Assembly: GCA_031281025.1 (NCBI GenBank)
Contig: JAITFY010000069.1
Coordinates: 1-33,129 of the forward strand
DNA from: Treponema sp.
Lineage (GTDB): Bacteria > Spirochaetota > Spirochaetia > Treponematales > Breznakiellaceae
Reading direction: 5' to 3'
DNA: 33,129 nt
Shown here one piece after another: positions 1,618 to 32,948 of this stretch. The notes under the pieces are model-generated. The model had not been told where the DNA came from and did not search any database. It saw only the letters and a program-made list of their open reading frames with translations. Position numbers and translations under genes: made by a program. Numbering within the stretch: the first letter of the stretch is position 1; each line of letters starts with the position of its first letter.

Positions 1618-1651
1618 AATAGAACCTCCATCTCGATATTATAATGTATTC

Positions 1652-1680: not shown

Positions 1681-1765
1681 GCGCTGAATGACTGTAGTAC
1701 TAATGCGGCGAAACAGTCCGGCAGAAACAGAGTTGCAATAAAGAATTAACGCATGGTTGTTTGAA

Positions 1766-3739: not shown

Positions 3740-3768
3740 TTGAAATAAAGCTAAGAAAGTGATACAAT
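3740..3768 (+). promoter_or_regulatory. Promoter for the FecR-like/cyclase operon
   Basis: TTGAAA (3740-3745), a 17-nt spacer and TACAAT (3763-3768) make a good sigma-70-type promoter. The predicted start lies about 32 nt upstream of the ATG at 3807. A GTG that could extend the reading frame upstream (3759) lies inside the spacer just before the -10, which argues against using it. Confidence 0.72.
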
Positions 3769-3806
3769 ATAGTCGAAGTATTGTTTATATATCTGGAGGT
3801 ATTAAA

Positions 3807-8586: not shown

Positions 8587-8724
8587 CATATAAAAAAACA
8601 CCCGCTATATATGGTGCAGGTGCCTGTCATCAAAAAAATATTTATTTTTTTTTCATTTTCGGTCAAGCACCACGCATGTGCACACCCATATAAGGGAAAC
8701 AAAATTTTCTTTATGGAGTTGCTT

Positions 8725-14606: not shown

Positions 14607-16126
14607 AAAAAAATATAGTTGTTTTATGTTTAATGCTTTTTTTGTTATTGAGCGCCTGCGATATTTTAAGGTCTTCATTGTTTAAAGTTGTTTCCTGGAC
14701 ACCGGGAGACGGTTATCATTCAGATCCGGGAAATATAATTATTTCTTTTGATTTTTCACACACTCCACATAAATCCAGTGTAGAGCGAAACTTTACACTT
14801 AACGAAGATGGAAATCGTGTAAGAGGATTTTTTAAATGGGAAAAAAACAAAATGACTTTTGTCCCACTGGTTCCTCTTAAAAAAAATGCTGACTATACAA
14901 TAAATATTTCCACCGATGCTCGTGATACCAACGGCCTTTCTATGGAGACGGCGTTTTATCATGTTTTTACTACGAGACCTTGTACAACCCGTCCAGATTT
15001 AATTTCGTGTTTTCCATCAATGCATGAAGAAATAAGCGATTTAAAAAGCCAGATAATACTGGAATTTTCATTACCCATACCGCTAAAAAGTTTATACGAT
15101 AACATTTCATTTGTTCCATCAATGACAGGTTTATGGCGGCAGGAAGATGAAGGGAAAACAGCCGTTTTTCAGCCTTCGGATATGTGGCTGCAAAATAACC
15201 GTTATGAGATTCGTATTTCTTCTTCATTGACAGATAACAATGGAATGAACATAAGAAATGGGTTTTCCAGTGTATTTATAACTGGAGCTGATCACGAAAT
15301 ACCAGCGCTTTTGTCTGCAAGCCGAATCACAAAAGCGGGTATTTCTATTCAGTTAATGCCGGACAGGGGGTTTTCATGTGTATCAGAATTACCGGTAGAA
15401 AACTCCGGCTGGGAAAAAGATGACCGGTTTTTGCTGGTTTTTTCCAAACCTGTTGACAGCCTATTGGTTAGAAATTATACGAATATTGAAAATGGTCCCA
15501 ATTTTGTTATGGAAACATTACCAGGTTTTAAAACAGAATTTATTTTTAGATTTGAAAATACGCCTGTTTATGAAAGCAGATTTACATTGAGAATAAGGAA
15601 TGGTATCAGAGATGAATCTGGAAATGAAACCAAAGATGAAAGTATTTTCCGGATCTTTGCCGACGGAGAATTTTCAAAACCACCGGAACTTGCCGGAATC
15701 AGAATACCAATGGCGCCTAAAAACCATACGGATTCTGAACCTGTTTTTTTTACAATTGATTCGCTTTATGAAACTATTCCCATAACAGACGAAAACTATC
15801 CATCCGGTGAAACTGTTAATACATGGATAGAATTGTATTTTATCACTGCAGAAGAAACGTTGATTGATGTTTTTTCCCTAATGGAATTGTTTCGTGTAGA
15901 AACTTCGAACAATGTGATTTATTTTTCTCCAAAACAGATAAAAACATCAGATTTTACATTTGTTGAACCACAATCAGGATGGGAAGATTTTCAAAGAGTA
16001 GAAATTATTGGTGATCTTAGAAATTCAACCAACTTTGGAATAATAAATTTTCAAATTGCTGCCGGTCTTAGGGATAATGCCGGTAACAGAAACGAAAACA
16101 GCTTTAACGTATCACTTAAAAAGTAG
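14603..16126 (+). CDS. Lipoprotein with Ig-like (Big_5-type) domains, paralogue 2
   Basis: This 507-residue lipoprotein (lipobox LLLLSAC, Cys about 19) is built like the preceding protein: Big_5-type units at about 25-125 (VVSWTPGDGYHSDPGNIIIS, MTFVPLVPL, DYTINISTDARDTNGLS), 130-225 (LISCFPSMHEEIS, YEIRISSSLTDNNGMN) and about 270-350 (FLLVFSKPVDSLL, FTLRIRNGIRDESGNETKD). The final 150 residues are beta-rich without a clear repeat. The two genes are probably an old tandem duplication, since they share domain order more than sequence. GTG 14603 is the start: GGAGG lies 7 nt upstream and the signal peptide begins there. Seven bases separate its stop from the first RND gene. Confidence 0.78.
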   Translation: MKKNIVVLCLMLFLLLSACDILRSSLFKVVSWTPGDGYHSDPGNIIISFDFSHTPHKSSVERNFTLNEDGNRVRGFFKWEKNKMTFVPLVPLKKNADYTINISTDARDTNGLSMETAFYHVFTTRPCTTRPDLISCFPSMHEEISDLKSQIILEFSLPIPLKSLYDNISFVPSMTGLWRQEDEGKTAVFQPSDMWLQNNRYEIRISSSLTDNNGMNIRNGFSSVFITGADHEIPALLSASRITKAGISIQLMPDRGFSCVSELPVENSGWEKDDRFLLVFSKPVDSLLVRNYTNIENGPNFVMETLPGFKTEFIFRFENTPVYESRFTLRIRNGIRDESGNETKDESIFRIFADGEFSKPPELAGIRIPMAPKNHTDSEPVFFTIDSLYETIPITDENYPSGETVNTWIELYFITAEETLIDVFSLMELFRVETSNNVIYFSPKQIKTSDFTFVEPQSGWEDFQRVEIIGDLRNSTNFGIINFQIAAGLRDNAGNRNENSFNVSLKK

Positions 16127-16133
16127 GGGTTAC

Positions 16134-19100
16134 ATGAGAGAATTAATAGTTTTTTTTGTCCGCCGTTTTGTTACTGTAACAATGATTATTGCAGCGGTGG
16201 TTATTGCAGCAGTTTTTTCACTTTTTAATATGCCAATTAACAGATTGCCGGAATTTTCTGTGCCAAGGGTAACTGTGGAAACACTGTACCCTGGCATGGC
16301 AGCTAACGAAATCAGGAGCATGGTGACAATCCCGATAGAGGACGGCCTTTCGGCGATAAAAGGCCTTGAAAGAATACGAAGCATTACACGGGACAATCGC
16401 TCATTTATCAGCCTGGATTTCCGCTGGGGAACCGACCCAATGGCGGCTTCTGTTCTTGTTCGCGAAGCTGTTGATACGGTTTATCCAGGCTTGCCGGAAG
16501 GTATTCGTAAACCAACGGTAACCTCAGGCAATTCCGGAGTTGAACCCCATGCAGTTATTGCTGTAAGTTCACGTAACGGGAATGCTGAATTTGCACGCAA
16601 GCTCGCCGAATACGAGATACAGGCACGCCTGCGCAGAATCGATGGCGTTGGTTCTGTCGTTATAGTTGGCGGTGAAATCCTGGAAGAGAGGTTATCCCTT
16701 GATGTTCAGAGGCTTGCCGCTCTTGGTCTTACGCCCTCTGATTTTGCAGGAATCCTTGCCCAGGAAACTGTTGACATTCCCGCAGGAAATGCCCGCGAAG
16801 GAAACATGGAGCTTGTTGTGGTAAGTTCTGGAAGACCGGATACAATTTCGTCACTTTCACAGGTAATCCTGCCCATTGGCTCCGGAACTTTTAGGGTTGA
16901 AGATGCCGGAGAACTCAGGTCTGCTGCAACGCGCAGGGAAAGCGTTTTTGTCTACAACGGAATTGAAGCAACAGCCCTGGAGATTTACCGCAGGCCGGGC
17001 GCTGATCCGCTGCGTTTATCCCGTGACATAGAAAAAACACTTGATGAAGCGGCTTCTTTTTTTTCACGTGATGCGCACATTGAGCTTGTAGCAGATTCAA
17101 CTCCCTCATTGATTAGTAGCATTACCGGTTTGCTAATATCCGCCTCTCTTAGCGTTGTGGCAGTTGTAATCGTACTGTTTTTGTTTTTACGCAGGCTTAA
17201 ACACAGCTTTCTTGCTTCCATGTCGATCCCCTTTTCAATTGCTGCGGGTATTTGCATGCTTTCCGTTACGGGAAAATCCCTGAACAGCATGAGTCTTGGC
17301 GGACTCGCCATGGGCATAAGCCTTGTTTCTGACATCAGCGTAATTGTTTTGGATCTTCTCCACAGGACTTTTGGAAAAAGGGAAACAATACCGGATTCGG
17401 ATGAAGTTGGAAACAAAGCGTTTTCGATTGCTGGTTCAAGCATAACATCCACATTAACAACTGCATTAGTTTTTATTCCGATAATCATGCTCCCTGGAGC
17501 ATTAGGCAGTATCTTTGGCGATATAACAATTGCTCTTGTTACTTCGGTAACAGCAGGATGGTTCTACGCTCAATTTTGTCTTCCTTCCCTGTATCGATTG
17601 TTCTTTGGTTCTGCGATAAATAAAAAACTAAAAAATATTAAAACTGTTTTTACAGATGGCAGTCTTGTAAAAAAATATTCAAATTTGCTTTTAAAAGTTC
17701 TTCGTCGTCCGGTTAAGTTTTTCATTTTAACCTCACTATTAAGCATAATAGGTTTTTTTACACTATTTATGCGTCCAGTTGTTTTTTTAAATCCAGACGA
17801 TGCGGAAGAAGTATGGGTTTCAGTTGTTTTTTCTCCTGGTACATTGTTGGAAAATTTGGAAAATTATGCAGGTAGTGTTTCCTGTTATATTTCAAGGCTG
17901 CCATCTGTAAAAACAGTGTATGGAAGAGCAGGTTCCGAAGAAGAAGATGTTAACCGCAGAGCAGACATCGACTACAGGAGAGAAGAACTCATCCTGCGTT
18001 GTGTGCTTGAAAAAAGAGTCAGGCCGCAGAAAGCGTTAGTTGAGATAACCGGCGCTTTGAAACAATTCGATCTGGAAAATAACCTTCCGCCGTTTTCAGT
18101 GTATTTTCCAAAAGATAGAGTTGAAGCGCTGCTTGGATTATCCGCCGCACACACGTATGTGATCATGGCAAAAGACAGGGAAGAATTAATTGAGCGAATC
18201 GAACTTGCAGAAGAAATTTTTAATGCAAAGTCAGTTGGGGCAAATTTTAGACCGCAGGGACAAAGGCCTGAATTACGTTTGTATCCTAACAGGGAGGCTG
18301 CCGCATACCTGTCAATATCAGCGTCGGAAATAGCCGAAACTTTGTACATCCTTAACGAAGGGGTTGTTGTAACAAAACTGGAAATTGAAGGCAGACCCCT
18401 TGATGTGCGTGTAACAGGGCAAAATGCAGGTTATGGCGCTTTGGCGTATAATTCCGTTCAAAGGCTGGAGCAAATTCCATTAAGAACATCTCAAGGTAGA
18501 ACAGTTTTCCTTGGCTCATTGGGCAGAATAGAGCATAAAGAAGCGGAAGCATCTCTAACACGGCTTGATCGCTCCGATGTTATTTATGCAGATATTGCAG
18601 CAGACAGGAGCAATACTAAAGCAATCAAAAGTATTGCGGAAGAATTTCCCTGGTTTACTGGAGCAGATGAATCGGTTTTTGGCCGTTATCGTAATTCATT
18701 GATCCTTTATGTTTTACTCGTATTGATACTGCTCTATTTAACAATGGGCGCTCAATTTGAATCTTTCCTGCTTCCGGTGATCCTTATGATTACAATTCCC
18801 ATTTCACTTGCCGGCGCAGGGCCTGCACTTTTATTGGCCGGTTCAATGGTCGATTCAGGCGCCATACTTGGACTTACCGTTCTTTTTGGTCTTGTTGTGA
18901 ATAACAGCCTGATTCTTTATGAGATCAGCGAAGAAAAAATGAAAGCTGGTTTTTATCCGATGCAGGCTGTTTATCGCGGAGCCAACGAACGCTTTTTGGC
19001 AATTTTAATCACAATGATAACAACCATATTCGCTTTATTGCCATTAATAATCAGTCCAATGGGAAATTCTCAAAAATCTATGGCTGCTGCCATGCTTGGA

Positions 19101-19196
19101 GGTCTTGCGGTATCAACCATACTCAGCTTATTTGTAATTCCTCCGGTTCTTGTCAGGTACTTCAAATGGAAACTAACAAGAGGAGGTTATAAATGA
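16134..19196 (+). CDS. RND efflux transporter (AcrB-like), first of a tandem pair
   Basis: This 1020-residue inner-membrane RND permease has the usual layout: TM1 near the N-terminus (VTMIIAAVVIAAVFSLF), porter loop 1 (VPRVTVETLYPGMAANEI, VEDGL-type and GVGSVVIVGG segments), TM2-6 (about 335-500), porter loop 2, and TM8-12 (about 855-1010). The proton-relay positions are atypical: in TM4, GISLVSDISVIVLD carries Ser399 then Asp400 where AcrB has Asp407-Asp408, and in TM10, GLVVNNSLILYE carries Asn923 where AcrB has Lys940. ATG 16134 is chosen over an in-frame upstream ATG at 16056 because AGGGGT lies just before it and the homologous N-terminus (MRELIVFFVRRFVTV) starts there. It overlaps the second RND gene by four bases (ATGA), as in MdtBC-type heteromeric pumps. 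Confidence 0.92.
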   Translation: MRELIVFFVRRFVTVTMIIAAVVIAAVFSLFNMPINRLPEFSVPRVTVETLYPGMAANEIRSMVTIPIEDGLSAIKGLERIRSITRDNRSFISLDFRWGTDPMAASVLVREAVDTVYPGLPEGIRKPTVTSGNSGVEPHAVIAVSSRNGNAEFARKLAEYEIQARLRRIDGVGSVVIVGGEILEERLSLDVQRLAALGLTPSDFAGILAQETVDIPAGNAREGNMELVVVSSGRPDTISSLSQVILPIGSGTFRVEDAGELRSAATRRESVFVYNGIEATALEIYRRPGADPLRLSRDIEKTLDEAASFFSRDAHIELVADSTPSLISSITGLLISASLSVVAVVIVLFLFLRRLKHSFLASMSIPFSIAAGICMLSVTGKSLNSMSLGGLAMGISLVSDISVIVLDLLHRTFGKRETIPDSDEVGNKAFSIAGSSITSTLTTALVFIPIIMLPGALGSIFGDITIALVTSVTAGWFYAQFCLPSLYRLFFGSAINKKLKNIKTVFTDGSLVKKYSNLLLKVLRRPVKFFILTSLLSIIGFFTLFMRPVVFLNPDDAEEVWVSVVFSPGTLLENLENYAGSVSCYISRLPSVKTVYGRAGSEEEDVNRRADIDYRREELILRCVLEKRVRPQKALVEITGALKQFDLENNLPPFSVYFPKDRVEALLGLSAAHTYVIMAKDREELIERIELAEEIFNAKSVGANFRPQGQRPELRLYPNREAAAYLSISASEIAETLYILNEGVVVTKLEIEGRPLDVRVTGQNAGYGALAYNSVQRLEQIPLRTSQGRTVFLGSLGRIEHKEAEASLTRLDRSDVIYADIAADRSNTKAIKSIAEEFPWFTGADESVFGRYRNSLILYVLLVLILLYLTMGAQFESFLLPVILMITIPISLAGAGPALLLAGSMVDSGAILGLTVLFGLVVNNSLILYEISEEKMKAGFYPMQAVYRGANERFLAILITMITTIFALLPLIISPMGNSQKSMAAAMLGGLAVSTILSLFVIPPVLVRYFKWKLTRGGYK

Positions 19197-22100
19197 AGTC
19201 GTTAGTTTCGTGGCTGGAAAGAAAAAAAGCCAGTCTTTGCATATTGGCAGGAATCTGTGCAGTATCGTTATTCGTCATTATTAATTCAGGTGAAACAATT
19301 AAACAAAGTACAGGAGGTTCATATGTAATACGAATTAAGCATTATGGTATTGATGCTGCAGAAATGGAAAGAAGTATTACTATTCCACTGGAAGATGCTT
19401 TTTTTCTGATTCCCGGCATCATGTCTGTTCAAAGTTCCAGTGTTAACAGTTTGTCAAGTGTTTTTGTAAGGTTTAAACCAGGAACAAAAGGACGTTATGA
19501 AGCAGTTCGTGATGCTGCACAACGGGTATACGAAACACTTCCCTCATCGGCACAAAGACCGGAGATTTTAAGTTCCAACAATTCAATTGTTCCGGTATGG
19601 TCAGCTTCCGTTATAGCAGATAACAAAATGGAAGATGTAAATGAAATTGTTTTAGCGGCGGAAATGCTTGAAAAAATTGTAAAGCCAAGACTGGAAAGTC
19701 TTGAAGGAGCAGGAGAAGTTCTTGTTTCCGGTGCAGGTTTAAAAGAAATATTTATTATTTTTGATCAGGAAAAACTAAGCCTGCTTGGTTTGCAGCCAAT
19801 GTCGGCAGCTTCTATCCTTGCAATGAACGATTCAATTTTTTCCGGCGGTTCTATTTTAATGCAAAACAGAGAGACAATAATTTCTGTGGATGGCAGGTAC
19901 GGTAAGATAAATTCGTTAGAGCCTGATTCACTTGAAAAAGCGCTTATTCCACTTGGGGACGGAAGATTTGTAGAGCTTTCAGAAATTGCCTTAATAACCG
20001 GACAGGAGCGGGAGCCCGATATACTTTCACGTTTAAACGGCAGAAGGACAGCAAGTATTGCCATCATGGGAAGGTATGGAGCAGATCTGCGTAAATTGTC
20101 TGTTGACATCAACAGGGAATTGTCCTCTCTTTCATTGCCGCTGGAATTCACCGTGTTATCTGACCTTGGAGCGGAGGAAGCCGCTGCTTTTAGATCGGTT
20201 TTAATAGCCGCATTGTTAGGCGCCATCATGGTGGCAATTGTCAGTTTTTTATTAAACAAAAACAAACATTTAAACATCTCCGGCTTTTTTTGTGCGCTGG
20301 CAATTCCATTGATTTGTCTGATTTCGGCTGCAATACTTGGCATTTTTGGCTTTTCTCTTGACAGGCTTCTGTTGGCAGGAATCGCTGCCGGAATAGGTGT
20401 TGCAATTGATGCTGTCATTCTCTGTTCTGAAAGACTGCGCAAATGTATCAATTACAATTGCGCTTCGGCGGAAATATCGTCGCTAACAAGACCGCTATTG
20501 GCAGGTGCGGCAACAACTGTAGCAGCTCTCATTCCACTTACAGCGATTGATGACAGCGGTGCAAAAATTATAGCAAACGCAATTATAGTTGTAACAATCA
20601 CGACGTTTATCCTGAGTCTTTCTTTGCTGCCTCCGCTGCTTCTTTGGAATGTAGACAAAAAACCGCAAAAAACAAAACAAACAGGGCAGTTATCCAAGCG
20701 ATTATCACATCAGTCCAGCAGAATTCTTGCTGCAACGGTAAGGTTCAGCGCCCGCTATCCGGTTGTAGTTCTGGCAGCAAGTTTAATTATTACAGTTTCT
20801 GCAGTTATTATGTTATTTGCAAAAGGTGTGGATACCGGAAGTTTTGGTTCCGAAGATTCAGTTTTTGCGCAGGTTGAATTCAGCGGAGGTTTACTTACCG
20901 AAGAAGTAGACCGGCTTCTTGCAGTTTACAGCAGGCAGCTTTTGGATCACGCAGGAATTGTAAACATCGAAGCAGGCTCGCGAACAGGATCCGGCTCTCT
21001 ACTTATTTCTTTTGATCCTAAACAAAGAAATGCTCACTCTGTCAGAGATTTAGCAAGACATATTTCCATTCCCGGCGGTTTTATTTTCTTTCATGAAAAT
21101 TCTGCTAAAGACCGGTACTGGGAAATTTTTATTTACGGAGATGAAGATCAAAAATGCCGCGAACTTGCAGAAGAATTGGCAATTATCTGTGCCGATTTTA
21201 CATTGATAAACGATGTGGTTCTGAATTTTAAACAAGGCAGTAAAAAAATGGTATTGCTGCCAAACAGGGAAAAATTTGCAGAATCGAATATTAGTTTTTC
21301 CGCTGCATCCTCAATGGCGCGATTGGGCGTTTATGGACCTGTAGCTTATAAAAGGCTAAATGCAGATGGAGAAATGGATGTAAGAATCAGAACAGCCGAT
21401 GGAAAGCAAAATGCTGTTAAACGTCAATCAAGAGAGGGTTTGCAAAATATCCTTGTCTCTAAAAGCAATGAAGATATTAATATTTCACTTTCTCTTAATT
21501 CACTTATGGATATTAGGGAAGAAACAGAACCTTCCAGTATAAGAAGATACAACCGGCGAAGATATGCTTCGATTACAATTTCTACAAAACCAATGGATCC
21601 GCGCCGTGTAAAACAGGAGCTAATCCACATGTTCAGAAAACTAGACCTGCCGCCAGGTTACTCAATTGAATTTGATCCTCAAGCAATTAAAGAGAGCGAA
21701 AGCATATCTGCTACAGTAATTTCTCTGATTATGGCAATTATTTTTTGTTACATGATAATTGCTTCGATTAACGAATCATTTTCTGTTCCATTGCTGGTTT
21801 TATCAGCCATACCGCCATCTTTGGCCATTCCTGCCATTTGGCTTGTTCTAACCGGCAGTTCATATAACTTAATCATTGCATGCGCTTTTATTGCGGTAAG
21901 CGGCATGACGATTAACGCATCTGTTCTTTGCGTAGACAGCATACTTTTAAAAGTCCAAACGGAAAATAAAAAAACTATTTTAAATGTTTATCTGGCTCTC
22001 CGAAGAAAAATGCCCGCTCTTCTTGCTACAACCGGAACAACTATAATCGGAGCAATACCATTTCTTTTTCTTACAGAGGGAGCAAATACACTGATAAGAA

Positions 22101-22210
22101 CTTTATCATTGGTAAGCGCTTTAGGAATTGCATGTTCTTTTATTTGTTCAATAACAATAATACCATCAATTTTATTTCTAACAAAAAAAACAAATCACGC
22201 TTTTGCGTGA
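19193..22210 (+). CDS. RND efflux transporter (AcrB-like), second of a tandem pair
   Basis: This 1005-residue RND permease is full length, with TM1 (LCILAGICAVSLFVII), two porter loops (AEMERSITIPLEDAFFLIPG, LEGAGEVLVSGAG; second loop about 560-850) and two 5-helix bundles. Its relay residues differ from AcrB and from its neighbour: TM4 GIGVAIDAVIL has Ile405 then Asp406 in place of Asp407-Asp408, and TM10 SGMTINASVLCVD has Asn908 in place of Lys940. The porter sequences are more divergent than in the first copy (no canonical RVTVET opening). AGGAGGT lies 5 nt upstream of ATG 19193, which overlaps the previous stop (ATGA). The stop lies in a perfect hairpin. It probably forms a hetero-oligomer with the first RND protein. 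Confidence 0.9.
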   Translation: MKSLVSWLERKKASLCILAGICAVSLFVIINSGETIKQSTGGSYVIRIKHYGIDAAEMERSITIPLEDAFFLIPGIMSVQSSSVNSLSSVFVRFKPGTKGRYEAVRDAAQRVYETLPSSAQRPEILSSNNSIVPVWSASVIADNKMEDVNEIVLAAEMLEKIVKPRLESLEGAGEVLVSGAGLKEIFIIFDQEKLSLLGLQPMSAASILAMNDSIFSGGSILMQNRETIISVDGRYGKINSLEPDSLEKALIPLGDGRFVELSEIALITGQEREPDILSRLNGRRTASIAIMGRYGADLRKLSVDINRELSSLSLPLEFTVLSDLGAEEAAAFRSVLIAALLGAIMVAIVSFLLNKNKHLNISGFFCALAIPLICLISAAILGIFGFSLDRLLLAGIAAGIGVAIDAVILCSERLRKCINYNCASAEISSLTRPLLAGAATTVAALIPLTAIDDSGAKIIANAIIVVTITTFILSLSLLPPLLLWNVDKKPQKTKQTGQLSKRLSHQSSRILAATVRFSARYPVVVLAASLIITVSAVIMLFAKGVDTGSFGSEDSVFAQVEFSGGLLTEEVDRLLAVYSRQLLDHAGIVNIEAGSRTGSGSLLISFDPKQRNAHSVRDLARHISIPGGFIFFHENSAKDRYWEIFIYGDEDQKCRELAEELAIICADFTLINDVVLNFKQGSKKMVLLPNREKFAESNISFSAASSMARLGVYGPVAYKRLNADGEMDVRIRTADGKQNAVKRQSREGLQNILVSKSNEDINISLSLNSLMDIREETEPSSIRRYNRRRYASITISTKPMDPRRVKQELIHMFRKLDLPPGYSIEFDPQAIKESESISATVISLIMAIIFCYMIIASINESFSVPLLVLSAIPPSLAIPAIWLVLTGSSYNLIIACAFIAVSGMTINASVLCVDSILLKVQTENKKTILNVYLALRRKMPALLATTGTTIIGAIPFLFLTEGANTLIRTLSLVSALGIACSFICSITIIPSILFLTKKTNHAFA

Positions 22211-22236: not shown

Positions 22237-25200
22237 ATGAAAAATTACCTTTTTAATAAAACTATTGCTGCATTTTTAACTTTTATTTTTATTTTAAGCT
22301 TATTTCCGTCAATAGGATTTGCTCAGTCTAATCCCTTTTTATCACATGGAGAAATTAAAGGGTTTAACAGATCCGTTATTGACAGCCATTTTAGCAGGGC
22401 AGACAGGGAAATAAATCCAGAACGCTGGTTAACGGAAGCCAGGTTTGGCATAACACAGGCAATTGCCGCATGGGAGTTAATTGCCTGTTCGTTATTTGAA
22501 AATACTTTTCAAATGGAAGAAGCGAAAAACCAAATAATAATTTGGAGTAACGAGGAGCTGGAAAAACGCTTTTCGCAGTGGTTAATTGAACGTTTTTTTG
22601 GCGACGCAGTTGAAAAAGCTGTTATGAATTTATCGCAAATGCTGGAAAATACGCAGATTAGCTATTCCTGGCATCTTGATGATGACGGCAATATACTCGT
22701 TGATGATAAAACCGGCAATCCAATGGTTATACGCCCTGATGATACAAACAGGGAATTTTCCAATGATTTACTAAGCTGGCGGAATGAAGCGGATAACAAT
22801 ATTAGAACAGCAAGTAATTCATTTGATAACGTTATGATACATTTGTATCCAGAACTATTGGCATATATTCCTTTTGAATTACGCGAATCAATGTTTGATA
22901 TAATCAACGAAACTTCATTATTATTAAACAATTCCATCAGGAGAGAATTCGAAAACATTGCCGCCAGAGAAGAAAGGATATTTACAAACAGGCGAACAAG
23001 AGATATCTGGAGTCTTAGAAGAAAAAGCGAAGATGAAGCAGCAAGGGTCTTCACAGAAAAATTAATTGCAGAAACAGAAGCTTCTGTTAAAAACGGCATT
23101 GATGAATTGAATGTCAGAATAGAACAAGCGGCTGCCGGCACTGGCGATCTTGCTCTATTAGGTGAAGAATGGCTGCGCTTGTATAAAGAGCAATTTGAAA
23201 GAGGACTAAAAGCATGGGAAGAAGCCGAAGAAAGATTCTTTATCAGGCGTATTGAATGGGAACAGGATTCGATACGGCTATTTTACGAAAGTGAAGAAAT
23301 ATGGAGCAAAGCTTTTGATCAGCTGGAAAAACAACGGGATGATTGGGAATTAAGCGCAAAGAACTTATTTGAAGCCGGCGTATTAATGTTTCAGAATATT
23401 TCTGATGACTTTAAAAAAAATATAGAGGATGCAAGAAGAGAATTTGAGCTGAATATGGCAATGCGGATAGGAGAAGGAACAACCAAAGTAAAAGCGCTGA
23501 TTGATATGTATCTTCTTTGTTCATCTGCAGCTATTTCTGCATTGGAAAATATTAATTATTGGCAAGCACAATACGGTGAAGGCGAAATAAACCCATACGA
23601 GAATGACGCTTATCAAATGTATAATTCGTATTTGGAAAAAGCTCTTGAAATACGGGAAGAAATTTTGAGTAATTATACAGAACTTTTTGGAACAGGGGCG
23701 CTAAAAGATATCCTGTCTCCTGATGTATCAAGTGCAGATTTTTATCTTGATGAATATCAAATTGCACTTATTAAAGCAAGAGCTCTTGTTCTTTATTGGG
23801 AGCGAAAAACTGCAATAGCCGAAGCAGTAAACATTTATGCAAGTGATCTTGGTGCAGGAAGAATGACAGAAGCAGAAAGCCGGCTTGCATGGGAAGAAGC
23901 AAAAGCGGTCTATAATGCGTCGATAGCTAATTACGAAAAAGAATTGAATGAGCTTAATTCAATTGGAAATGATCTTCAAAAACAGAAAGATAAATTGAAT
24001 AACCTTGTTTTGATAATGCAGCAAGAGGAAGATAAATTAAACCAGCTGCATTCTGAATATACCTCATTAATTACTATCTCTGTAGTTAACCGTGAAAGTT
24101 ATTTTTACCATGACTTTAATACAAAATATAACAACCTTGTTTTGGAATACAAATTATTCCAAATGACGGGACGTAATTCATTGTATTTTGCAGAACTGGA
24201 ATATGCAATGAAATGGGAAATTTTGGAACAAAGGGAATCGGCAGAGAAAATCCTTAATATACTTATATACGGAGAAAATGACGAACTGCTTTCTCTTCTG
24301 GAACTGGAAGAAAAAGTTTTAGAAGGGTCAGCATCAGAGGTCGATTTGAGGATACGTCTTGCTGCAATAGATCTACTAAGTTTATTTGAGGAACCGTATA
24401 GCGGCGCAGATTGGTATTCCAAAGTAAAAGGAATTTATTTGTCAGAAGATGAAAAAGCTGCTCTTTACGGAAATGGTTTGAATACCCAGCTTTATACTGA
24501 TTATTTAAACAGCTCGCAGCTGCTTCTGAATAAACGTCTTGAATATGAATTGGAAGCATTTATAAACTTCTTGATAGAGAAAGAAAAAGCGGACAACATA
24601 GAGGACGATGAACCGGATATTCCTGAATTTGCTCTATTATTCCTGGACGACATGGAAAAAGCATTTTATATTCATGAAGTTTTAACTAACTTAAAATACA
24701 GAATAGATCAGGGAAAGTCATACTATACTGATGATTACGAAGAAAATTTAATAATTGAATATTTTGTATCAGGATATTCTTTTTTTGAAAGAGACAGTTC
24801 GTTTCTTATAAACTACTATGATGATTATTTCTTAAGTATAGGTTTATTGGAATTTTTCAATGAATATTCGATTTTTAGTTACTATATCCAGGAAGAAGCG
24901 TGGCAAAAATCACTTTTTGCCATAGCAAATTTGTTTAATGAATACGGCCTGGCTGCACCGGTTAATTTATTACCCGATATCCATGATATTTGCCAGGCTA
25001 TACTTGGCAAACACGGTGATTTTGTACTAAATTCCGCTCAATTTATTCATGATTTTGATAGTTGTTTCCAGATGATGCCGCAATGGATTGAATCAGAAAT
25101 AACTAATTGGAAAAATGCATTAATTGAATATATTGCAGCTTATGCGTTTTTTATTAACATAAAACCCGAAAAGAACACAATGGCTTTAGATATTGAGCAA

Positions 25201-28200
25201 AATGTTTTAAATGATAATTACGATTCAATAATTAATGAATTAACATCTTTTTATTTTCTGGACATTATTGAAACAGAAAGGATAAACATTCTGTTAAATG
25301 ACATGTATAATGAACTACAGTTATTGTTTTATATGAACATTATTACTGAAACATGGGAAAATAATCTCCGAATCTCATTAACAAATGAAAAACATTGGCG
25401 GCAGTATTTGCCGGATGTTAATTTAACAGACTTTTCCGTACCTGCATTGGTTTCGTCATGGGAAGAAGGTTTATTGGCAGATGCTTTGTTTAATGCAGAT
25501 TATCACACAAACAGAATAAACGATTTTTATATTATTTATTCACAAAAAGAAACATCAGAAATAGAAGGAGTTGCCGGAAATTATTATAATTCATATTTTA
25601 ACAGCACTTCTATTAATAGATTTCGTGTTAACTCACTGCAATTTCATTACAAAGACTTTGCAAACGCAGCCAGATTGTATGAATTATCAATAATGTCATC
25701 TGATGAGATTAGAGTACAGATATTGGCTAAAGAAGTGGAATTAAAAGCCCAAGAGGAAGTTTATAATTCAATCAGAAATAATTACTTCCGGGAAGCTAAA
25801 GAATTTATGGAAATTGGTACTCTTTATGATGAACAATACAGTGTATTAAAAGATAAATACGATTTTATGGATCAAAAACGATTTGAATACGAAAAACAGG
25901 ATGTTATACAAAGATGGGCAAGCACAGCATATCTAAATTTAGATACTTTTGATTTGGAAAATTGCAAGGCAAAATTATTAAGGGCAGAAATTGTATTAAA
26001 TGTTCTGTCTGATCTTTACAATGACGAAACAATACGTTCAGATAATTCTGAGTATGCCGCTTTATATTCTGCATACGAACAAAGTTTTGCCAGAAGACTT
26101 AAAGTAATGAACCTTATTGAAACACTGAATTCAGAAAGTGCAAGTGAATATGCCAACAATCAACTTATTTTTATAAATTATCAAAATTCACTTAATCAAC
26201 TTGGGTATGTTAATCAGGATTATTCTGATTATTATTTACCGGAATCAAGAAACGAATGGAAAATTGAAAATATTATAACAGTAAAAAATGGACGTCTTGT
26301 TTTTTCCAGAAATGACTCTATGTTAATAACAGGAGTAAATCAATCCGAGGCGGAGACAATTGCCGGCTTTTTTAATACAAAGGCAATTCCAGAAAATGAA
26401 TTTTTCGAAATAAGCCAGTTTGATGAAGCGCTAAGGGGATTGAGCCAAAGAATGGCGGGTTATTTTTCCAATCCTGATAAATTAATAAACTGGGGTTTGG
26501 CAAGAGAATATTTGTTATATTCATTAATAAATTCAAACCAGGATTTAGGATTTTTAGAACGCTATTATATTGGATTGGAACAACTGGATAGAAACGGCTC
26601 TATGGGCAGCCAAACAGTTTCTACTGGAGTATCTTATTTAACGGCAAATACAAAAAGTTTGTATTCTGCAATAAGTGATAAAGATGTTATTATAAATTTT
26701 GAAACCATCTATAAAAATGCCTGGGATAGTTTGTCTCAGGAAGAAAAAGCAGATCTTGAATTTTATGTGATTCTTATGCTTCATGATACCAATGATTATT
26801 TTGAAGGTTTTTCTAATGTATATACTCTTTCTGCTTATAATACAGCAGTTGATTATGTTGCTGAGCGTTACAATCGTGCAAGAAAAAAAGCAAAAAATAT
26901 TTTGACTGGAGTTAACATTCCAGCATATAAAACAATGCGGGATATAAATAAAAAAATGCTGGAGAGAATTACTTCGGCTTATGAAGAAAAATTAAAATTG
27001 GTAAATAATTGGCAAAATCAATTAATGAGTATTTTATCAACTTCACAAAGCCTCGCTTTGGCATATAAAGAATCGAACGAAAGACTTATTTCTTTGGAAG
27101 GGCATGTTATTGATGGGCAAAAAATTGTTTGGGAAGATTTAAACCAGACTTTTTTGGAATCTGGTAAAATAACTGAAGAGGATATTGCTGAAATAAAAGA
27201 ATACTGGGAAACAATGACGGAAGAAAATGCAAATATGGAATTCACCAGTGTTTCCAGAGCGTTATCGGCCTTGTTTAATTGGGCAAATAACGAAGAAATT
27301 ATAAGCAAAAATACATTGGATAATTTATGGCTGCGGGATATTCAAAATCAAAAAATTAACGAAAATTATTTTATTGCTGCCGCAGACGCATATATTGCCG
27401 GAACTATTAATGCAGAAACTTTAAGAGCAGCAGCAGAGAATGCCTATGGAAAATATTCTGTCTCATTAAAAAATCATCAATACAATATGTACGCAATTAT
27501 GATGAATAATTTATCATTGTATTTGGACATCGACAATAATTTTAGTTATGTGTTTGATGCAATTGGAGAAGAAATAATTTTATTAACCGCAGCATCACTG
27601 GAAAACAGATATAACGCAGAGCTTGCAGCCAGAGAAATTGAGTGGAATCAATTAATGAAAGACATCGAAGAAAAATACTCGGAATGGCTGGATTCTGCCG
27701 CTCAAATTTTTGAAAGGGGAAGAGCCGACTGGAATGCCGGTTTCCAAAGGATGAAAGCTGCAGAAGAACAATGGTATCTGAATTTCGAAAACGAATACAA
27801 CCGTGTAGAAAATGAATGGAACGAAGCGTATTTAATAGGTCTTATGGACAAAGAAAGCTGGCTGGAAATGGCGGCTGACGCAGCAAATGAAGCTTCCACA
27901 GATGCGTTTTTATCGCTGATTGGCGCGGAAGGAGAACGTTTATCCCGCTTTGTTGACACCAGAGAACCCTTTGGTATTCGTGATGCAATCCCCGAAGCGC
28001 AAAACCTGATGAATGAGCTGCTACAGTCTTCTGGAATCGCCAGCATGGCTAATGCCTTTGGTTCCTTAAACAGTATTGCAAGTACCGCTTCTGTAAACGT
28101 ACGACGCGGTTTGGGAGGCGCTTCTACATGGGACGCTAACCTGGTTAAAACAGCTGCAGCGGACCTGGCAAGACAAGTAAACTCCGAAATCGCTGATAAC

Positions 28201-31200
28201 GAAGCAAGGAAACTTGCGCATAATGCACGTTTAACTGCTAATGAGGCAATTAAGGGTTTGGAAGAAAGCGTGGATTCTGCAAATGAAAATTTCCGTCGTA
28301 GTATGGATAATACTTTTATTTTTAACGGGCTTTGGTCAAGGAGTGGAAATAATTACGTAAAAGATGTAATAAAGGGTTCTACACTCTTAAAACCAGTCGT
28401 TTCTAAAACAGTAACTGTTACAGGTTATGAAAATTATATAATGGAACCAATAATACTAAAAACAAGTCTGGAAGAAAATTATCTTGCCAGTTTGAATTCT
28501 ATTGCTATACAAGGATTATTGGAAAATGTTTTTTTTGAGATACAGGTTATATCCAGTGAAATTTTTGGAGTTGGTGAAAACCCAAAAGAGATAGAAGGAA
28601 ACCGCGAACAATCTCCTGGTAAATTCGGCGCTCACATTGGATACGGGCCCAGCACAAAACCAGAAAAAGATTTTAAAAAATCAAAAAAATCAATGTTTAA
28701 CGATGAAGGCGCCGGAGAACTTGGACGCTTGATGACGGAGTTTACCTATTGGGCTATAATTGATGCCAGAGGAACGGCTGAACTTTCTCTCGCACCGTGG
28801 GATAAACGAATATGGAATGACGACGGAAGCTGGTTTTCGTCACCTTCACTTCGCTCAGTTGGTTCGATAGCATGTTCGATAGCTGCAGGTATAGTTTCTG
28901 GCGGTGCAGGTTTTGCCGCGATATTTACAACAGCACTGGTAGGTTCTGCAAGTGAAATTGCATTTGGAGCGCTTGATGTTGCTTATGGATATAAATCCTG
29001 GGATGAAGCAGCTTTTGGTGTTGGTAAAACGATATTAACAAGTACAGTTAGTGGTTTAGGTTCAGAATATTTTGGTAAGGGGCTGACAAGTACTGTAATG
29101 GAGAAGGTAAACGGCCCTGTAAACACTGTCCTTGCACAAACCGCATTAACAGGAACTCAGACTTTAACAACTGGTTTTACTACCAGTTTAGTAGGCGGTA
29201 TTACCTACAACAGCAGCGATGGTTTTGGCTATTCCAACAAAGCTTTTAAAGCTGGAATGACAGGTGTCTTTAATAATACACTAACATCCATGGTCAGCAC
29301 ATTTACCACATCAAGCTTAACAGCAATAAACACTGGTTATTTATCGGATGATTCAAAAACAAATAAATTATTGGGTTTTAATCTTAATAATCGTGAAGAT
29401 GTTGGTAAACTTAATAACCTTATCGGCTCGCTTGCAGGTCAGGGAGTAGATTATGCTTTGGGCAATAATTTTACTATGAATGTACTCAATTTGAACCAAT
29501 TTGGCGAAGAAAAATACAATAGCGGCTTACTCGAATTAAATATTGGCCGCAGCGGCACAACAATGAACATAGGAACAGGAGGCGCAAATGTTAGTTATAA
29601 CAATTTAACCGCTGCTTTTAGAGGCGCAGCAGTCTGGAATGTAAATACACGTATTAGCGGATATATAAAAAACGAAAGCAAAGAAGGGGGCAACCAATTT
29701 GATGCTGCAGTAACTTTACGCGCTCAATATGGCTACGGAGATGATAGCGCAAAAGGTCAATTATGGGATATACTTAAAGGGGATACTTTGTTGAAGACTG
29801 ATGGAGAAGGGGATTATAGAGCGATGACTACACTCAACAAAAACGGGCAGAAAGTGGTTCATCTGACAGAGTACCGGCAAAACATGAGTGCAGAAGAACA
29901 ATTTCTTCTTGCAGTGGTTCTTGGACATGAAGCACACAGGGATGGAATAGTGACGGCTGACAATTATTTGAATACAAGAACAGCCACGCTTGCGCACACA
30001 GAAATGGCGATGAGGATGATGCTTGGCGGAGAAAGTATAGCGTTTGATCAAAACCTCGTAAACGATATGTCTGCACTCATAGCTGTAGCCACCGCGGGTG
30101 ATATGTCTGTTTTCAATGACTATGTTGATAATAATTACGATTCGAGCGCGGATTATTGGAAGTTGGTTGAAGGCGCAGATGGCTTTCACTACTTTGAATG
30201 GGACGGCAAATTAGAATTTGATTTGTCATCAATCGGAAGAGGAAACAATATTGGGGATTTAAGTGATGAAGATTTAGCGGCTATTTGGAGTGTGGGCGTT
30301 AATTTTGCAGATAAGGATGCTTTCTTGGCAGCTCTTGGGACGCTTGGTACTTTGAATAATGCAATTCATGGTTTTGAAAGAACCTTTAATGTTGTGCCAG
30401 GAAATACACCAACTACAGGTATTTTTGATACACATTGGGCTACTTTTGAAAATGCGATACTGGCGGCAGGTGATTCGGGACTGATAGCTAAAAGTGCCCA
30501 AAATATATTGAATCTTGGCACTGCGCCACAGGTTTTTGCCAATGGCTTTGGTGAAATTACGAGCAGTTACGGATGGAGAGCTATGTTATTGGGGAATACT
30601 GCTGGTCAGATTCGACCTCATTTCGCATGGGATTTAGGAGCACGAGGTCCTGGAAACAGACGAGAAAATGCAGACCCAAGATTAGTAGCCCCAATGGATG
30701 GAACACTGGCTTTTCATTTTACTCAACAAATGGGCATTCAACTGATAACTTCAGGCGGAGAGAATGAATCTATTACTTACTCCCATGCTAACGCATCATC
30801 AATTAGGAATTTTACAGGGTTGTTTTTTACTGATGGCATTAATTTAAGCGGCAATACGCTGACTGGAATATCTCAAAATATGGTTGTTGGAGTAATGGGA
30901 AATACAGGCTTATGGTCACAAGCCCCGCATGTAGATTTGATTTACAGAAAAAATGGTGTTGTACAAGACCCAGCAATCTTTTTCTATCAAAATGGAGGAA
31001 GGAATTCTTTCCCAATAACCCCTTTAGCCAGAGCTATGAGTGGGTTTTCTGGTACAGCCAATAATGTACAACTTACTTATGAAAATGTTCAAGGGATGTA
31101 TAATTATCTTACTACCGGTCCAAACAGACAAAATGTACAAGATATTTTCTGGACATTTGGAGCAAGCAGTGATTCGACACTTTTTCATAGGGTTTATACA

Positions 31201-31224
31201 AATCATAATATATTGGGTTTTTAA
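22237..31224 (+). CDS. Giant secreted protein (2995 aa): helical stalk, hydrophobic segment, HEAHRDG motif, C-terminal M23-like peptidase domain
   Basis: ATG 22237 has GGGAG 6 nt upstream and opens a signal peptide (LTFIFILSLFPSIGFA, cleavage before Q30); an in-frame ATG at 22132 lies inside the RND gene. Residues 30 to about 1880 are Glu/Trp/Tyr-rich and helical, with coiled coils at about 518-615 and 1147-1234 and related Trp-rich modules at about 339-385 and 1801-1875. About 2206-2310 is Ala/Gly/Ser-rich and hydrophobic. His2564-Glu-Ala-His-Arg-Asp-Gly follows, with a further His at 2587. About 2768-2918 is an M23/LytM-like domain: HFAWD (His2795, Asp2799), VAPMDG, YSHA (His2850), VMGNTG and PHVDL (His2898, Asp2900 where His is normal). 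About 75 residues follow. From memory it resembles very long Leptospira/Treponema proteins (TIGR04388, Lepto_longest). It is 26 nt behind the RND pair. Function unknown. Confidence 0.85.
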   Translation: MKNYLFNKTIAAFLTFIFILSLFPSIGFAQSNPFLSHGEIKGFNRSVIDSHFSRADREINPERWLTEARFGITQAIAAWELIACSLFENTFQMEEAKNQIIIWSNEELEKRFSQWLIERFFGDAVEKAVMNLSQMLENTQISYSWHLDDDGNILVDDKTGNPMVIRPDDTNREFSNDLLSWRNEADNNIRTASNSFDNVMIHLYPELLAYIPFELRESMFDIINETSLLLNNSIRREFENIAAREERIFTNRRTRDIWSLRRKSEDEAARVFTEKLIAETEASVKNGIDELNVRIEQAAAGTGDLALLGEEWLRLYKEQFERGLKAWEEAEERFFIRRIEWEQDSIRLFYESEEIWSKAFDQLEKQRDDWELSAKNLFEAGVLMFQNISDDFKKNIEDARREFELNMAMRIGEGTTKVKALIDMYLLCSSAAISALENINYWQAQYGEGEINPYENDAYQMYNSYLEKALEIREEILSNYTELFGTGALKDILSPDVSSADFYLDEYQIALIKARALVLYWERKTAIAEAVNIYASDLGAGRMTEAESRLAWEEAKAVYNASIANYEKELNELNSIGNDLQKQKDKLNNLVLIMQQEEDKLNQLHSEYTSLITISVVNRESYFYHDFNTKYNNLVLEYKLFQMTGRNSLYFAELEYAMKWEILEQRESAEKILNILIYGENDELLSLLELEEKVLEGSASEVDLRIRLAAIDLLSLFEEPYSGADWYSKVKGIYLSEDEKAALYGNGLNTQLYTDYLNSSQLLLNKRLEYELEAFINFLIEKEKADNIEDDEPDIPEFALLFLDDMEKAFYIHEVLTNLKYRIDQGKSYYTDDYEENLIIEYFVSGYSFFERDSSFLINYYDDYFLSIGLLEFFNEYSIFSYYIQEEAWQKSLFAIANLFNEYGLAAPVNLLPDIHDICQAILGKHGDFVLNSAQFIHDFDSCFQMMPQWIESEITNWKNALIEYIAAYAFFINIKPEKNTMALDIEQNVLNDNYDSIINELTSFYFLDIIETERINILLNDMYNELQLLFYMNIITETWENNLRISLTNEKHWRQYLPDVNLTDFSVPALVSSWEEGLLADALFNADYHTNRINDFYIIYSQKETSEIEGVAGNYYNSYFNSTSINRFRVNSLQFHYKDFANAARLYELSIMSSDEIRVQILAKEVELKAQEEVYNSIRNNYFREAKEFMEIGTLYDEQYSVLKDKYDFMDQKRFEYEKQDVIQRWASTAYLNLDTFDLENCKAKLLRAEIVLNVLSDLYNDETIRSDNSEYAALYSAYEQSFARRLKVMNLIETLNSESASEYANNQLIFINYQNSLNQLGYVNQDYSDYYLPESRNEWKIENIITVKNGRLVFSRNDSMLITGVNQSEAETIAGFFNTKAIPENEFFEISQFDEALRGLSQRMAGYFSNPDKLINWGLAREYLLYSLINSNQDLGFLERYYIGLEQLDRNGSMGSQTVSTGVSYLTANTKSLYSAISDKDVIINFETIYKNAWDSLSQEEKADLEFYVILMLHDTNDYFEGFSNVYTLSAYNTAVDYVAERYNRARKKAKNILTGVNIPAYKTMRDINKKMLERITSAYEEKLKLVNNWQNQLMSILSTSQSLALAYKESNERLISLEGHVIDGQKIVWEDLNQTFLESGKITEEDIAEIKEYWETMTEENANMEFTSVSRALSALFNWANNEEIISKNTLDNLWLRDIQNQKINENYFIAAADAYIAGTINAETLRAAAENAYGKYSVSLKNHQYNMYAIMMNNLSLYLDIDNNFSYVFDAIGEEIILLTAASLENRYNAELAAREIEWNQLMKDIEEKYSEWLDSAAQIFERGRADWNAGFQRMKAAEEQWYLNFENEYNRVENEWNEAYLIGLMDKESWLEMAADAANEASTDAFLSLIGAEGERLSRFVDTREPFGIRDAIPEAQNLMNELLQSSGIASMANAFGSLNSIASTASVNVRRGLGGASTWDANLVKTAAADLARQVNSEIADNEARKLAHNARLTANEAIKGLEESVDSANENFRRSMDNTFIFNGLWSRSGNNYVKDVIKGSTLLKPVVSKTVTVTGYENYIMEPIILKTSLEENYLASLNSIAIQGLLENVFFEIQVISSEIFGVGENPKEIEGNREQSPGKFGAHIGYGPSTKPEKDFKKSKKSMFNDEGAGELGRLMTEFTYWAIIDARGTAELSLAPWDKRIWNDDGSWFSSPSLRSVGSIACSIAAGIVSGGAGFAAIFTTALVGSASEIAFGALDVAYGYKSWDEAAFGVGKTILTSTVSGLGSEYFGKGLTSTVMEKVNGPVNTVLAQTALTGTQTLTTGFTTSLVGGITYNSSDGFGYSNKAFKAGMTGVFNNTLTSMVSTFTTSSLTAINTGYLSDDSKTNKLLGFNLNNREDVGKLNNLIGSLAGQGVDYALGNNFTMNVLNLNQFGEEKYNSGLLELNIGRSGTTMNIGTGGANVSYNNLTAAFRGAAVWNVNTRISGYIKNESKEGGNQFDAAVTLRAQYGYGDDSAKGQLWDILKGDTLLKTDGEGDYRAMTTLNKNGQKVVHLTEYRQNMSAEEQFLLAVVLGHEAHRDGIVTADNYLNTRTATLAHTEMAMRMMLGGESIAFDQNLVNDMSALIAVATAGDMSVFNDYVDNNYDSSADYWKLVEGADGFHYFEWDGKLEFDLSSIGRGNNIGDLSDEDLAAIWSVGVNFADKDAFLAALGTLGTLNNAIHGFERTFNVVPGNTPTTGIFDTHWATFENAILAAGDSGLIAKSAQNILNLGTAPQVFANGFGEITSSYGWRAMLLGNTAGQIRPHFAWDLGARGPGNRRENADPRLVAPMDGTLAFHFTQQMGIQLITSGGENESITYSHANASSIRNFTGLFFTDGINLSGNTLTGISQNMVVGVMGNTGLWSQAPHVDLIYRKNGVVQDPAIFFYQNGGRNSFPITPLARAMSGFSGTANNVQLTYENVQGMYNYLTTGPNRQNVQDIFWTFGASSDSTLFHRVYTNHNILGF

Positions 31225-31232
31225 TAATCACA

Positions 31233-31275
31233 AATAGAACAGGGTTAAGTATAAATATTTAATCCTGTTTCTATT
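31233..31275 (+). terminator. Long stem-loop after the giant gene
   Basis: AATAGAACAGGGTTAA (31233-31248) pairs with TTAATCCTGTTTCTATT (31259-31275): 16 bp with one bulge and one G-U pair around a 10-nt loop. It starts 9 nt after the giant-gene stop. The following bases are AT-rich but not a U-tract, so it may be an imperfect terminator or a 3'-end stabilising or processing hairpin. It sits 25 nt before the next start codon. Confidence 0.55.
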
Positions 31276-31299: not shown

Positions 31300-31686
31300 A
31301 TGAAAACACTAGAAGGAATTTTGCTGCTTTTTTTATTTATTGCTATGCTTTTTTCATGCAATAGAAATACAAATGAAGCAAGAGAACGAATTTCAGAGCA
31401 AAATATTGTTGGAGATATTACTATCTTTGATGAGTTTACTGAAAGCAATGAAATTGAATTGGAATCCTTTTTTAACCCATATTTGTTTGTGCTTGAAGAA
31501 GTTGAAGTATACGATTTTCCTGATATTATAACTGGCAAAATAATTTATACCTTAGAAATGTACGAAGATATATTTTTTGTTGGAAGAAGCGTTGTTACAT
31601 TTGAAATTAATGGGATAAACGATCACTGGACGAAAATAACTTCTCCTGTTGTAGGCTGGGTATTTGCAGCAAAGTTCGCTCAATAA
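31300..31686 (+). CDS. Small lipoprotein with SH3-like C-terminus
   Basis: This 128-residue lipoprotein has signal GILLLFLFIAMLFSCNR (lipidated Cys about 20), an acidic Ser/Glu-rich linker (about 25-60), then a compact beta-rich segment (about 62-128): LFVLEEVEVYDFPDI, FVGRSVVTFEINGI, HWTKITSPVVGWVFAAKF. The WxKI...GWVFA ending is the classical last-strand pattern of bacterial SH3 domains, which often bind peptidoglycan peptides. AAGGAGAG lies 4 nt upstream of ATG 31300. Its signal peptide (MKTLEG...FSCNR) is strikingly like that of the lipoprotein at 31997. Its position after a giant protein with a peptidoglycan-hydrolase-like tip suggests an immunity or accessory role, but that is inference. 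Confidence 0.72.
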   Translation: MKTLEGILLLFLFIAMLFSCNRNTNEARERISEQNIVGDITIFDEFTESNEIELESFFNPYLFVLEEVEVYDFPDIITGKIIYTLEMYEDIFFVGRSVVTFEINGINDHWTKITSPVVGWVFAAKFAQ

Positions 31687-31703: not shown

Positions 31704-31741
31704 TTAACGCAATTATGTAGCAGAGTACATAATTGCGTTAA
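31704..31741 (+). terminator. Perfect 16-bp inverted repeat between the two lipoprotein genes
   Basis: TTAACGCAATTATGTA (31704-31719) and TACATAATTGCGTTAA (31726-31741) are perfect complements around a 6-nt loop. The hairpin begins 17 nt after the stop at 31686. The downstream sequence TAATTTGGTT is not a clean U-run. It may terminate the lipoprotein transcript. The TAACGC...GCGTTA ends also resemble recombination-site arms (see findings). Confidence 0.6.
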
Positions 31742-31996: not shown

Positions 31997-32887
31997 ATGA
32001 AAACATTAAAAAAAACCTGGTGTGTTTTTTTAGTTATGGCTCTGTTTTTTTCCTGTAACAGAGCTATAAATGTTATGAAAGAACAGATTGTACAGGAAAC
32101 AACTGTTGATACTATTGTCGCTGTACCGGAAACTGTAAATGAAAATATATCTGAAAGGGTTTCTGAAACAGATAATATATCACTTTTGATAAGGGAGAAT
32201 CGTGATTTGCTTACAGATCATTATTGGAGTATTTCAGATGGCAGATGGCTTGAAGGCGGTCAGACCCATGATTGGGTTGGCTCTATGACACCGCATGCTG
32301 TTTTTTATAAACTGGAAATACCACCAAACAGTGTTATATATCAAGAACGGCTCAGAAGGGAAATATTTTATTTTCTATATCAGACAGAAGAAAGTGACAA
32401 TTTTTTCCCAATCGGTTTGGTATCAAACGAACCATTTGAAATAATATTTAATGATAATTTTTCTTTCTTTAGGAAGTTAAGAGGTGGCAGACATTTTTCT
32501 GTTGGTAATAGGATTGGTGAACAAACAAATCTCAATTACCCCCTTGTCGGTATTTGGGAGGAGTATTCATTTATAAATGAATACCATTTGGTTGATCCTT
32601 TAGATAGTCTGTATTACATGGTAATTGATAAAGCAATACCATTTTGGGCAGTACGTGAGGGTACCTACTTAATAAGGCAGACTGGGGGTAATACATTCGA
32701 GACTGTATCCTCATTCCCTGATGGCCGCTTACAGCTTGAAGTAAAAAGCAACAGGCAGATGGTACTTAGGCCATTATTTGAATTGCCCGATGACGAAGAA
32801 GGTCTTGTTGATATTTTAATTATGGACCGAAACCAGATGAGGATTAGTGAGATACCTGAGGAGTATTTAAATTCTGATGGATGGTAA
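31997..32887 (+). CDS. Unrecognised lipoprotein, related at the N-terminus to the upstream small lipoprotein
   Basis: This 296-residue lipoprotein has signal TWCVFLVMALFFSCNR (lipidated Cys about 20) and an acidic linker (about 25-65) much like the 128-residue lipoprotein upstream. The body is beta-rich and aromatic: HYWSISDGRWLEGGQTHDW (about 75-93), a YKLEIPPNSVIYQERLRREI segment, VGIWEEYSFINEYHLVDP and a C-terminal REGTYLIRQTGGNTFETVSS. I do not recognise the family. TAGGAG lies 6 nt before ATG 31997. A 55-bp piece of this gene is repeated just after its stop. It could be an immunity or surface lipoprotein paired with the giant protein, or a cassette gene unrelated to it. Confidence 0.7.
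   Translation: MKTLKKTWCVFLVMALFFSCNRAINVMKEQIVQETTVDTIVAVPETVNENISERVSETDNISLLIRENRDLLTDHYWSISDGRWLEGGQTHDWVGSMTPHAVFYKLEIPPNSVIYQERLRREIFYFLYQTEESDNFFPIGLVSNEPFEIIFNDNFSFFRKLRGGRHFSVGNRIGEQTNLNYPLVGIWEEYSFINEYHLVDPLDSLYYMVIDKAIPFWAVREGTYLIRQTGGNTFETVSSFPDGRLQLEVKSNRQMVLRPLFELPDDEEGLVDILIMDRNQMRISEIPEEYLNSDGW
32219..32273 (+). repeat. Donor copy of a 55-bp direct repeat inside the lipoprotein gene
   Basis: This segment encodes HYWSISDGRWLEGGQTHD. It matches 32892-32946 at 50 of 55 positions in the same orientation, 673 bp downstream. Confidence 0.85.
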
Positions 32888-32891
32888 ATTT

Positions 32892-32948
32892 CATTATTGG
32901 TTCATTTCAGATGGCAGATGGCTTGAAGGCGGTCAAACCTATGATTAA
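32892..32948 (+). pseudogene. Relic of a second copy of the lipoprotein gene
   Basis: Starting 4 nt after the lipoprotein stop, this stretch reads HYWFISDGRWLEGGQTYD-stop in one frame and matches codons in the middle of the upstream gene (32219-32273). Of the five differences, three change one codon (AGT to TTC), one is silent (CAG to CAA) and one changes His to Tyr. Keeping the frame over 18 codons with a silent change suggests the copy once diverged as coding sequence and was later truncated by recombination. There is no start codon or signal sequence, so it is not a working gene. Confidence 0.7.

Follow-up and report, generated by a model that had tools for sequence, protein, structure and literature searches.

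We analysed a 33,129-nucleotide contig of Treponema sp. (JAITFY010000069.1, assembly GCA_031281025.1; its full length is called the window below), in which a gene for a giant secreted protein of 2995 residues stands at the end of an operon for a tripartite resistance-nodulation-division (RND) system. The genes lie in the order lipoprotein-TPR-TolC-MFP-Big_5-Big_5-RND1-RND2-giant, with ends that overlap or nearly touch. A sequence-only reading of this DNA had described an overlapping upstream run of TolC-type, adaptor, TPR lipoprotein and RND genes, and the Pfam matches agree with it. Neither the variability of the giant's tip nor the lipoprotein genes 3' of the giant figured in that reading. 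The features are as follows.

8716-9723, plus strand: probable lipoprotein, first gene of the conserved operon (the mechanical open reading frame begins at 8611); in most relatives whose upstream sequence reaches far enough, the syntenic block begins with it
9725-10354, plus strand: TPR protein, probable lipoprotein (Pfam TPR_19, 2e-16); kept in the block
10356-11804, plus strand: TolC-type outer-membrane channel (Pfam OEP, 3e-34)
11804-13165, plus strand: periplasmic adaptor (MFP) of HlyD/CusB type (Pfam HlyD_D23, 4e-20)
13146-14606, plus strand: Big_5 lipoprotein a (Pfam Big_5, 5e-9; lipobox TVSC)
14603-16126, plus strand: Big_5 lipoprotein b (Pfam Big_5, 2e-26; lipobox LSAC), the operon marker, which co-occurs with the giant
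16056-19196, plus strand: RND permease 1, RND1 (Pfam ACR_tran, 7e-152); Asp of transmembrane helix 4 (TM4) invariant in 45 of 45
19193-22210, plus strand: RND permease 2, RND2 (Pfam ACR_tran, 2e-77); TM4 Asp invariant in 50 of 50
22237-31224, plus strand: giant secreted protein, 2995 residues, with signal peptide, helical stalk, pre-toxin region and variable M23-like tail
28594-30156, plus strand: conserved pre-toxin region of the giant, about residues 2120-2640, from alignments, orphan cassettes and the model; hydrophobic helical part and HEA[HY]RDG motif
30157-31221, plus strand: variable C-terminal domain of the giant, M23-like; HxxxD kept as HFAWD, HxH altered to HVD
31300-31686, plus strand: im1, a small lipoprotein (lipobox LFSC) whose gene begins 75 nt after that of the giant; candidate for the cognate immunity protein
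31997-32887, plus strand: lipoprotein im2, candidate orphan immunity gene with homologues at other giant loci
32886-32945, plus strand: decayed second im2 copy (fragment) near the contig end; the frame reads HYWFISDGRWLEGGQTYD and then a stop, with a tblastn match to im2-family proteins

The giant open reading frame runs from an ATG at 22237 to a stop codon at 31222-31224 (2995 codons). A mechanical start at 22132 falls within RND2, and we favour 22237 because the signal peptide MKNYLFNKTIAAFLTFIFILSLFPSIGFA sits there. The 26 nt between the end of RND2 (22210) and this start contain GGGAG, which resembles a ribosome-binding site, and no plus-strand terminator-like site is listed in the gap. 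The gene, its signal peptide and its distance from the RND pair are as the sequence-only reading had them. Homologues are up to 62-68% identical across long stretches, which indicates a conserved gene; their N-termini are alike and their lengths range from ∼2300 to 3900 residues. In an AlphaFold2 model, residues 28-760 are nearly all helix, with single helices of up to 101 residues (mean pLDDT 75, pTM 0.35). The helical stalk of about 1850 residues that had been proposed is borne out for this part, and residues 760-1800 lie outside it. The whole protein matched nothing in Pfam, NCBIfam or PHROGs, Foldseek gave no match at E < 0.001 for either the stalk model or a pre-toxin/tail model, and VIA-align gave none with Z of at least 8 for the latter.

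The association of the giant with the RND genes extends across the spirochaetes. A giant is encoded in 25 of 60 related genomes, and most of their loci with enough upstream DNA share the gene order of the window. A family-wide search, in which an N-terminal alignment pattern was run against 84,980 species genomes, found 67 giant loci, every one in a spirochaete; most are in Treponema assemblies that we take, from isolate names and general knowledge, to come from termite guts, and others are in Gracilinema caldarium and further lineages. RND2 lies immediately upstream of the giant in 51 of these loci. The other 16 comprise one with a 1.8-kb gap, one with the operon minus the RND pair, one divergent locus, nine with the giant detached and four with too little upstream sequence. 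Of 16 genomes examined because their giant stood apart, had another arrangement or was cut off, 14 had the Big_5 marker. Among 244 genomes of the order, 66 had both giant and marker, one had only the giant, 10 had only the marker and 167 had neither (Fisher p 1e-47, uncorrected for phylogeny and with species that are not independent). A neighbourhood check proposed with the sequence-only reading has in this way come out in its favour, as homologues mostly keep company with the efflux genes. In Treponema of another family the order is Big_5-Big_5-TolC-MFP-RND1-RND2-giant, and in two distant genomes the operon is divergent and adjoins the giant. Retention of the linkage through such rearrangement lends it independent support, and a functional linkage between the giant and the tripartite RND system is strongly supported by these genomic comparisons.

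We found that the family is conserved to about residue 2640 of the giant and drops abruptly beyond it. Relatives are 26-60% identical to the window in the pre-toxin region and ∼10-20% identical after residue 2700, with the exception of two that carry the same tail type as the window. The 80 proteins with a pre-toxin region fall into 27 tail clusters, which cut across backbone relationship: unrelated tails occur on backbones that are 76-78% identical (L114 versus L111 and L121; 78% for L114-L121), and one tail cluster recurs across families (L134, L100, L143 and L170). Tails above the Pfam cut-off match M23 (E to 4e-11) and M15_4/VanY (1.5e-13, 3.6e-12 and 4e-11), and a CHAP match (1e-4) falls just under it. 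Judged from these profiles, the recognisable tails are peptidoglycan peptidases. In a further large group a Cys and a His are invariant and an NPW motif is present, and another has an S-x-G-C motif; going by motifs, the first resembles papain/C39-like peptidases and the second L,D-transpeptidases. Profile searches with these two groups found no relative among PDB sequences.

The window's own tail, its last ∼330 residues, belongs to the M23-like type. A C-terminal enzyme-like fold had been proposed for it, and relatives sustain an M23-like assignment: the tails of L041, L051 and L066 pass the Pfam M23 gathering score, and a profile of the window tail and six relatives, in which canonical M23 sequences were included, matches lysostaphin, zoocin A and ShyA. 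The M23 motif HxxxD is present in the window tail; at the position of HxH, the window and L079 have HVD and L078 has HVH. Because confidence in the model of this tail is low (pLDDT mostly 30-45), we make no claim about its fold. Within the pre-toxin region, the motif HEA[HY]RDG (window positions 29926-29946) is nearly invariant in giants and orphan cassettes, has no fold match and could serve for self-cleavage or metal binding. Scanned against NCBIfam, the pre-toxin region gave chance matches only, and it was absent from the plasmid and phage records searched. A literature search on the Leptospira family TIGR04388 found no paper.

The pre-toxin region occurs not only in giants but also on orphan cassettes. 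In G243, a genome in one contig, the operon and giant are followed by signal-less proteins of 627-1344 residues in which the pre-toxin region is joined to a new tail; a small gene comes after each of them. Arrays of cassettes alternating with small genes were also present in G231, G181 and G252, and orphan cassettes occur in G007 and G011 as well; none was found in the window's own genome, which is 82% complete. In G007, two cassettes (L068 on contig C12 and L070 on contig C13) share their contigs with a transposase-like open reading frame, which suggests how tails may move.

Across the family, a lipoprotein gene often lies within ∼100 nt 3' of the giant. In the main groups the clusters of downstream genes track the tail clusters (6/6, 5/5, 3/3, 2/2 and 2/2), and one further downstream cluster is plainly a housekeeping gene. 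Homologues of im2 lie directly 3' of giants with C39/papain-like tails in five species (L042, L047, L048, L052 and L054; E to 5e-81) and stand as a later gene behind giants with M23-like tails in L046 and L051. In appearance, im2 and its decayed copy match the retained or orphan immunity genes of known polymorphic toxin loci. A displaced toxin remnant was sought between im1 and im2 and was not found. Terminator-like hairpins lie at 31237-31270, after the giant, and at 31704-31741, after im1; the first could keep im1 out of the giant's transcript.

Taken by its anatomy as read from the genomes, this is a polymorphic toxin system, with the linkage to RND export as its new element. Like CDI/CdiA, Rhs and MafB, it has a secreted giant with an N-terminal trafficking signal, a conserved N-terminal backbone, a pre-toxin region and an exchangeable C-terminal domain, and the family has adjacent candidate immunity genes that match the tail (im1 is a candidate only) and orphan cassette and immunity arrays. 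It differs from them in its tripartite RND operon, in that its recognisable tails are all wall peptidases, and in a helical stalk in place of RHS or filamentous-haemagglutinin repeats. No TpsB-type partner was found beside the giant in the conserved block, and the locus does not qualify as CDI or two-partner (type 5) secretion. The export routes in the 2012 catalogue of polymorphic toxins include Sec with type 2 secretion, types 5, 6 and 7 secretion, PVC, TcdB/TcaC, PrsW and MuF (Zhang et al. 2012, PMC3482391). A Sec-dependent class in that catalogue would accommodate the giant's signal peptide, but the genes around the giant form an RND-TolC operon, which the list lacks; the first 300,000 characters of the text mention neither RND nor TolC.

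The transport genes resemble those of tripartite RND efflux systems such as AcrAB-TolC and the heteromeric MdtBC type: an RND pair, an MFP adaptor and a TolC-type channel, all recognised by Pfam, lie in one operon, and the proton-relay Asp of TM4 is kept. At the position of the second AcrB Asp, Ser or Ile/Val is found. The operon differs from such systems in its additional Big_5 and TPR lipoproteins and in its near-exclusive co-occurrence with one giant family. Type 1 secretion (HlyBD-TolC, LapBCE) likewise links an adaptor and a TolC-type channel to a very large secreted protein, but here an RND pair stands in place of an ABC transporter, of which no gene was found in the conserved block, and the presumed substrate carries a Sec signal peptide at its N-terminus. 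M23 bacteriocins that come with self-protection genes, lysostaphin and zoocin A among them, also combine an M23 peptidase, here recognised by profile, with a neighbouring candidate protection gene; in the present family the peptidase is instead an interchangeable tip on a protein of ∼3000 residues.

We consider it probable, although far from secure, that the giant is a polymorphic toxin-like protein with a peptidoglycan peptidase, exported by a dedicated RND system to attack competitors while lipoproteins protect the producer. The signal peptide would take the giant into the periplasm through Sec, and the helical stalk and pre-toxin region would present the exchangeable C-terminal peptidoglycan peptidase, M23-like in the window. 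The eight upstream genes would form a dedicated tripartite RND system, driven by the proton-motive force and equipped with Big_5 and TPR lipoproteins, which would pick the giant up in the periplasm, pass it through the TolC-type channel and display or release it. Its tip would then cut the wall of competing bacteria, and the downstream lipoproteins would shield the producer's periplasm, which the toxin must cross. Delivery of a wall peptidase into that periplasm by Sec would explain why the partner genes encode lipoproteins. RND pumps take their substrates from the periplasm, as is established for AcrB; this, together with the invariant TM4 Asp of both permeases, makes proton-motive-force-driven passage through a TolC-type channel coherent. 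The observations beneath this proposal are the conserved gene order, the co-occurrence, the exchange of tails, the peptidase families of many tails, the lipoprotein genes that track them and the orphan cassettes. From these we infer toxicity, immunity, RND-driven protein export and bacterial targets. We regard as evenly poised the more specific idea that a periplasm-fed RND complex powered by the proton-motive force serves spirochaetes at large as a dedicated secretion or surface-assembly machine for a polymorphic toxin of ∼3000 residues, distinct from type 1 secretion and from the catalogued routes.

Several findings weigh against this proposal. Export of a 2995-residue chain by an RND system is its weakest step and of questionable physical feasibility, and searches of open-access papers found neither protein export by a tripartite RND system nor, for that matter, an RND-linked polymorphic toxin. 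The window tail on its own scores weakly against Pfam M23 (E 0.0035, 17.9 bits, below the gathering score of 28.7), and the second His of its HxH motif is replaced by Asp. There is no adjacent lipoprotein gene at L057, L060 and L094-L096, one cluster of downstream genes (imm 3) goes with more than one tail type, and im1 has only faint similarity to im2-family genes and no clear relative. In G454 a full operon is followed by an unrelated gene instead of an adjacent giant. In G043 the RND pair beside the giant is lost and a complete second copy of the operon is retained (L188, G043:C26:2104-16568); the 1.6 kb left on that contig contain no giant.

Toxin and pump might instead be partners in a conflict operon, with the RND system exporting a small molecule or lipid or acting in detoxification and the giant leaving by another route. 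To our knowledge the well-studied RND pumps all move small molecules, large protein export is credited to ABC-type type 1 systems in a review, and some giants are detached from the operon. We nevertheless judge this unlikely, given the near-exclusive co-occurrence, the linkage kept despite rearrangement and a conserved block free of biosynthetic genes. That eukaryotic gut protists or the host are the giant's targets is quite improbable: most loci come from termite-gut spirochaetes, but Gracilinema caldarium and other spirochaetes from outside the gut also have homologues, the recognisable tails are peptidoglycan peptidases, and immunity by lipoproteins fits a target in the periplasm. Some envelope-spanning machines have wall enzymes associated with them, and the peptidase tails would also suit a housekeeping enzyme that opens the wall for the pump or reshapes the producer's own peptidoglycan; the different tail families of close relatives, the orphan cassette arrays and the tail-specific partner genes make this very improbable. 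Least probable of all is a structural role for the giant in the RND complex, as tether, stalk or ruler, which the long all-helical N-terminal model would allow but which fits poorly because a pump part is not expected to have interchangeable peptidoglycan-peptidase tips and tail-matched lipoprotein genes, or to range so widely in length. The sequence-only reading had offered a periplasm-spanning tether or ruler, a pump substrate or a surface effector; the latter two fit together, and they fit best.

Elsewhere in the window, positions 3759-6763, upstream of the operon, encode a small secreted protein that by eye is FecR-like and then a CHASE2-guanylate/adenylate cyclase of 853 residues, possibly a signalling pair. 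Pyruvate:ferredoxin oxidoreductase genes and a GidA/MnmG-like gene occupy positions 1-3562 on the minus strand and are ordinary housekeeping neighbours.

If the giant is indeed a toxin exported by its RND partners, an RND pump would be secreting a protein of giant size, which would change the view of what this well-studied transporter superfamily can carry. A demonstration of that export, for which a cultivable relative would allow a direct test, would also make the route of secretion a new one. Spirochaetes, which are numerous in termite guts and in other crowded communities, would likewise possess a weapon dedicated to use against rivals, with wall-cutting tips that can be exchanged and protection genes that match them.

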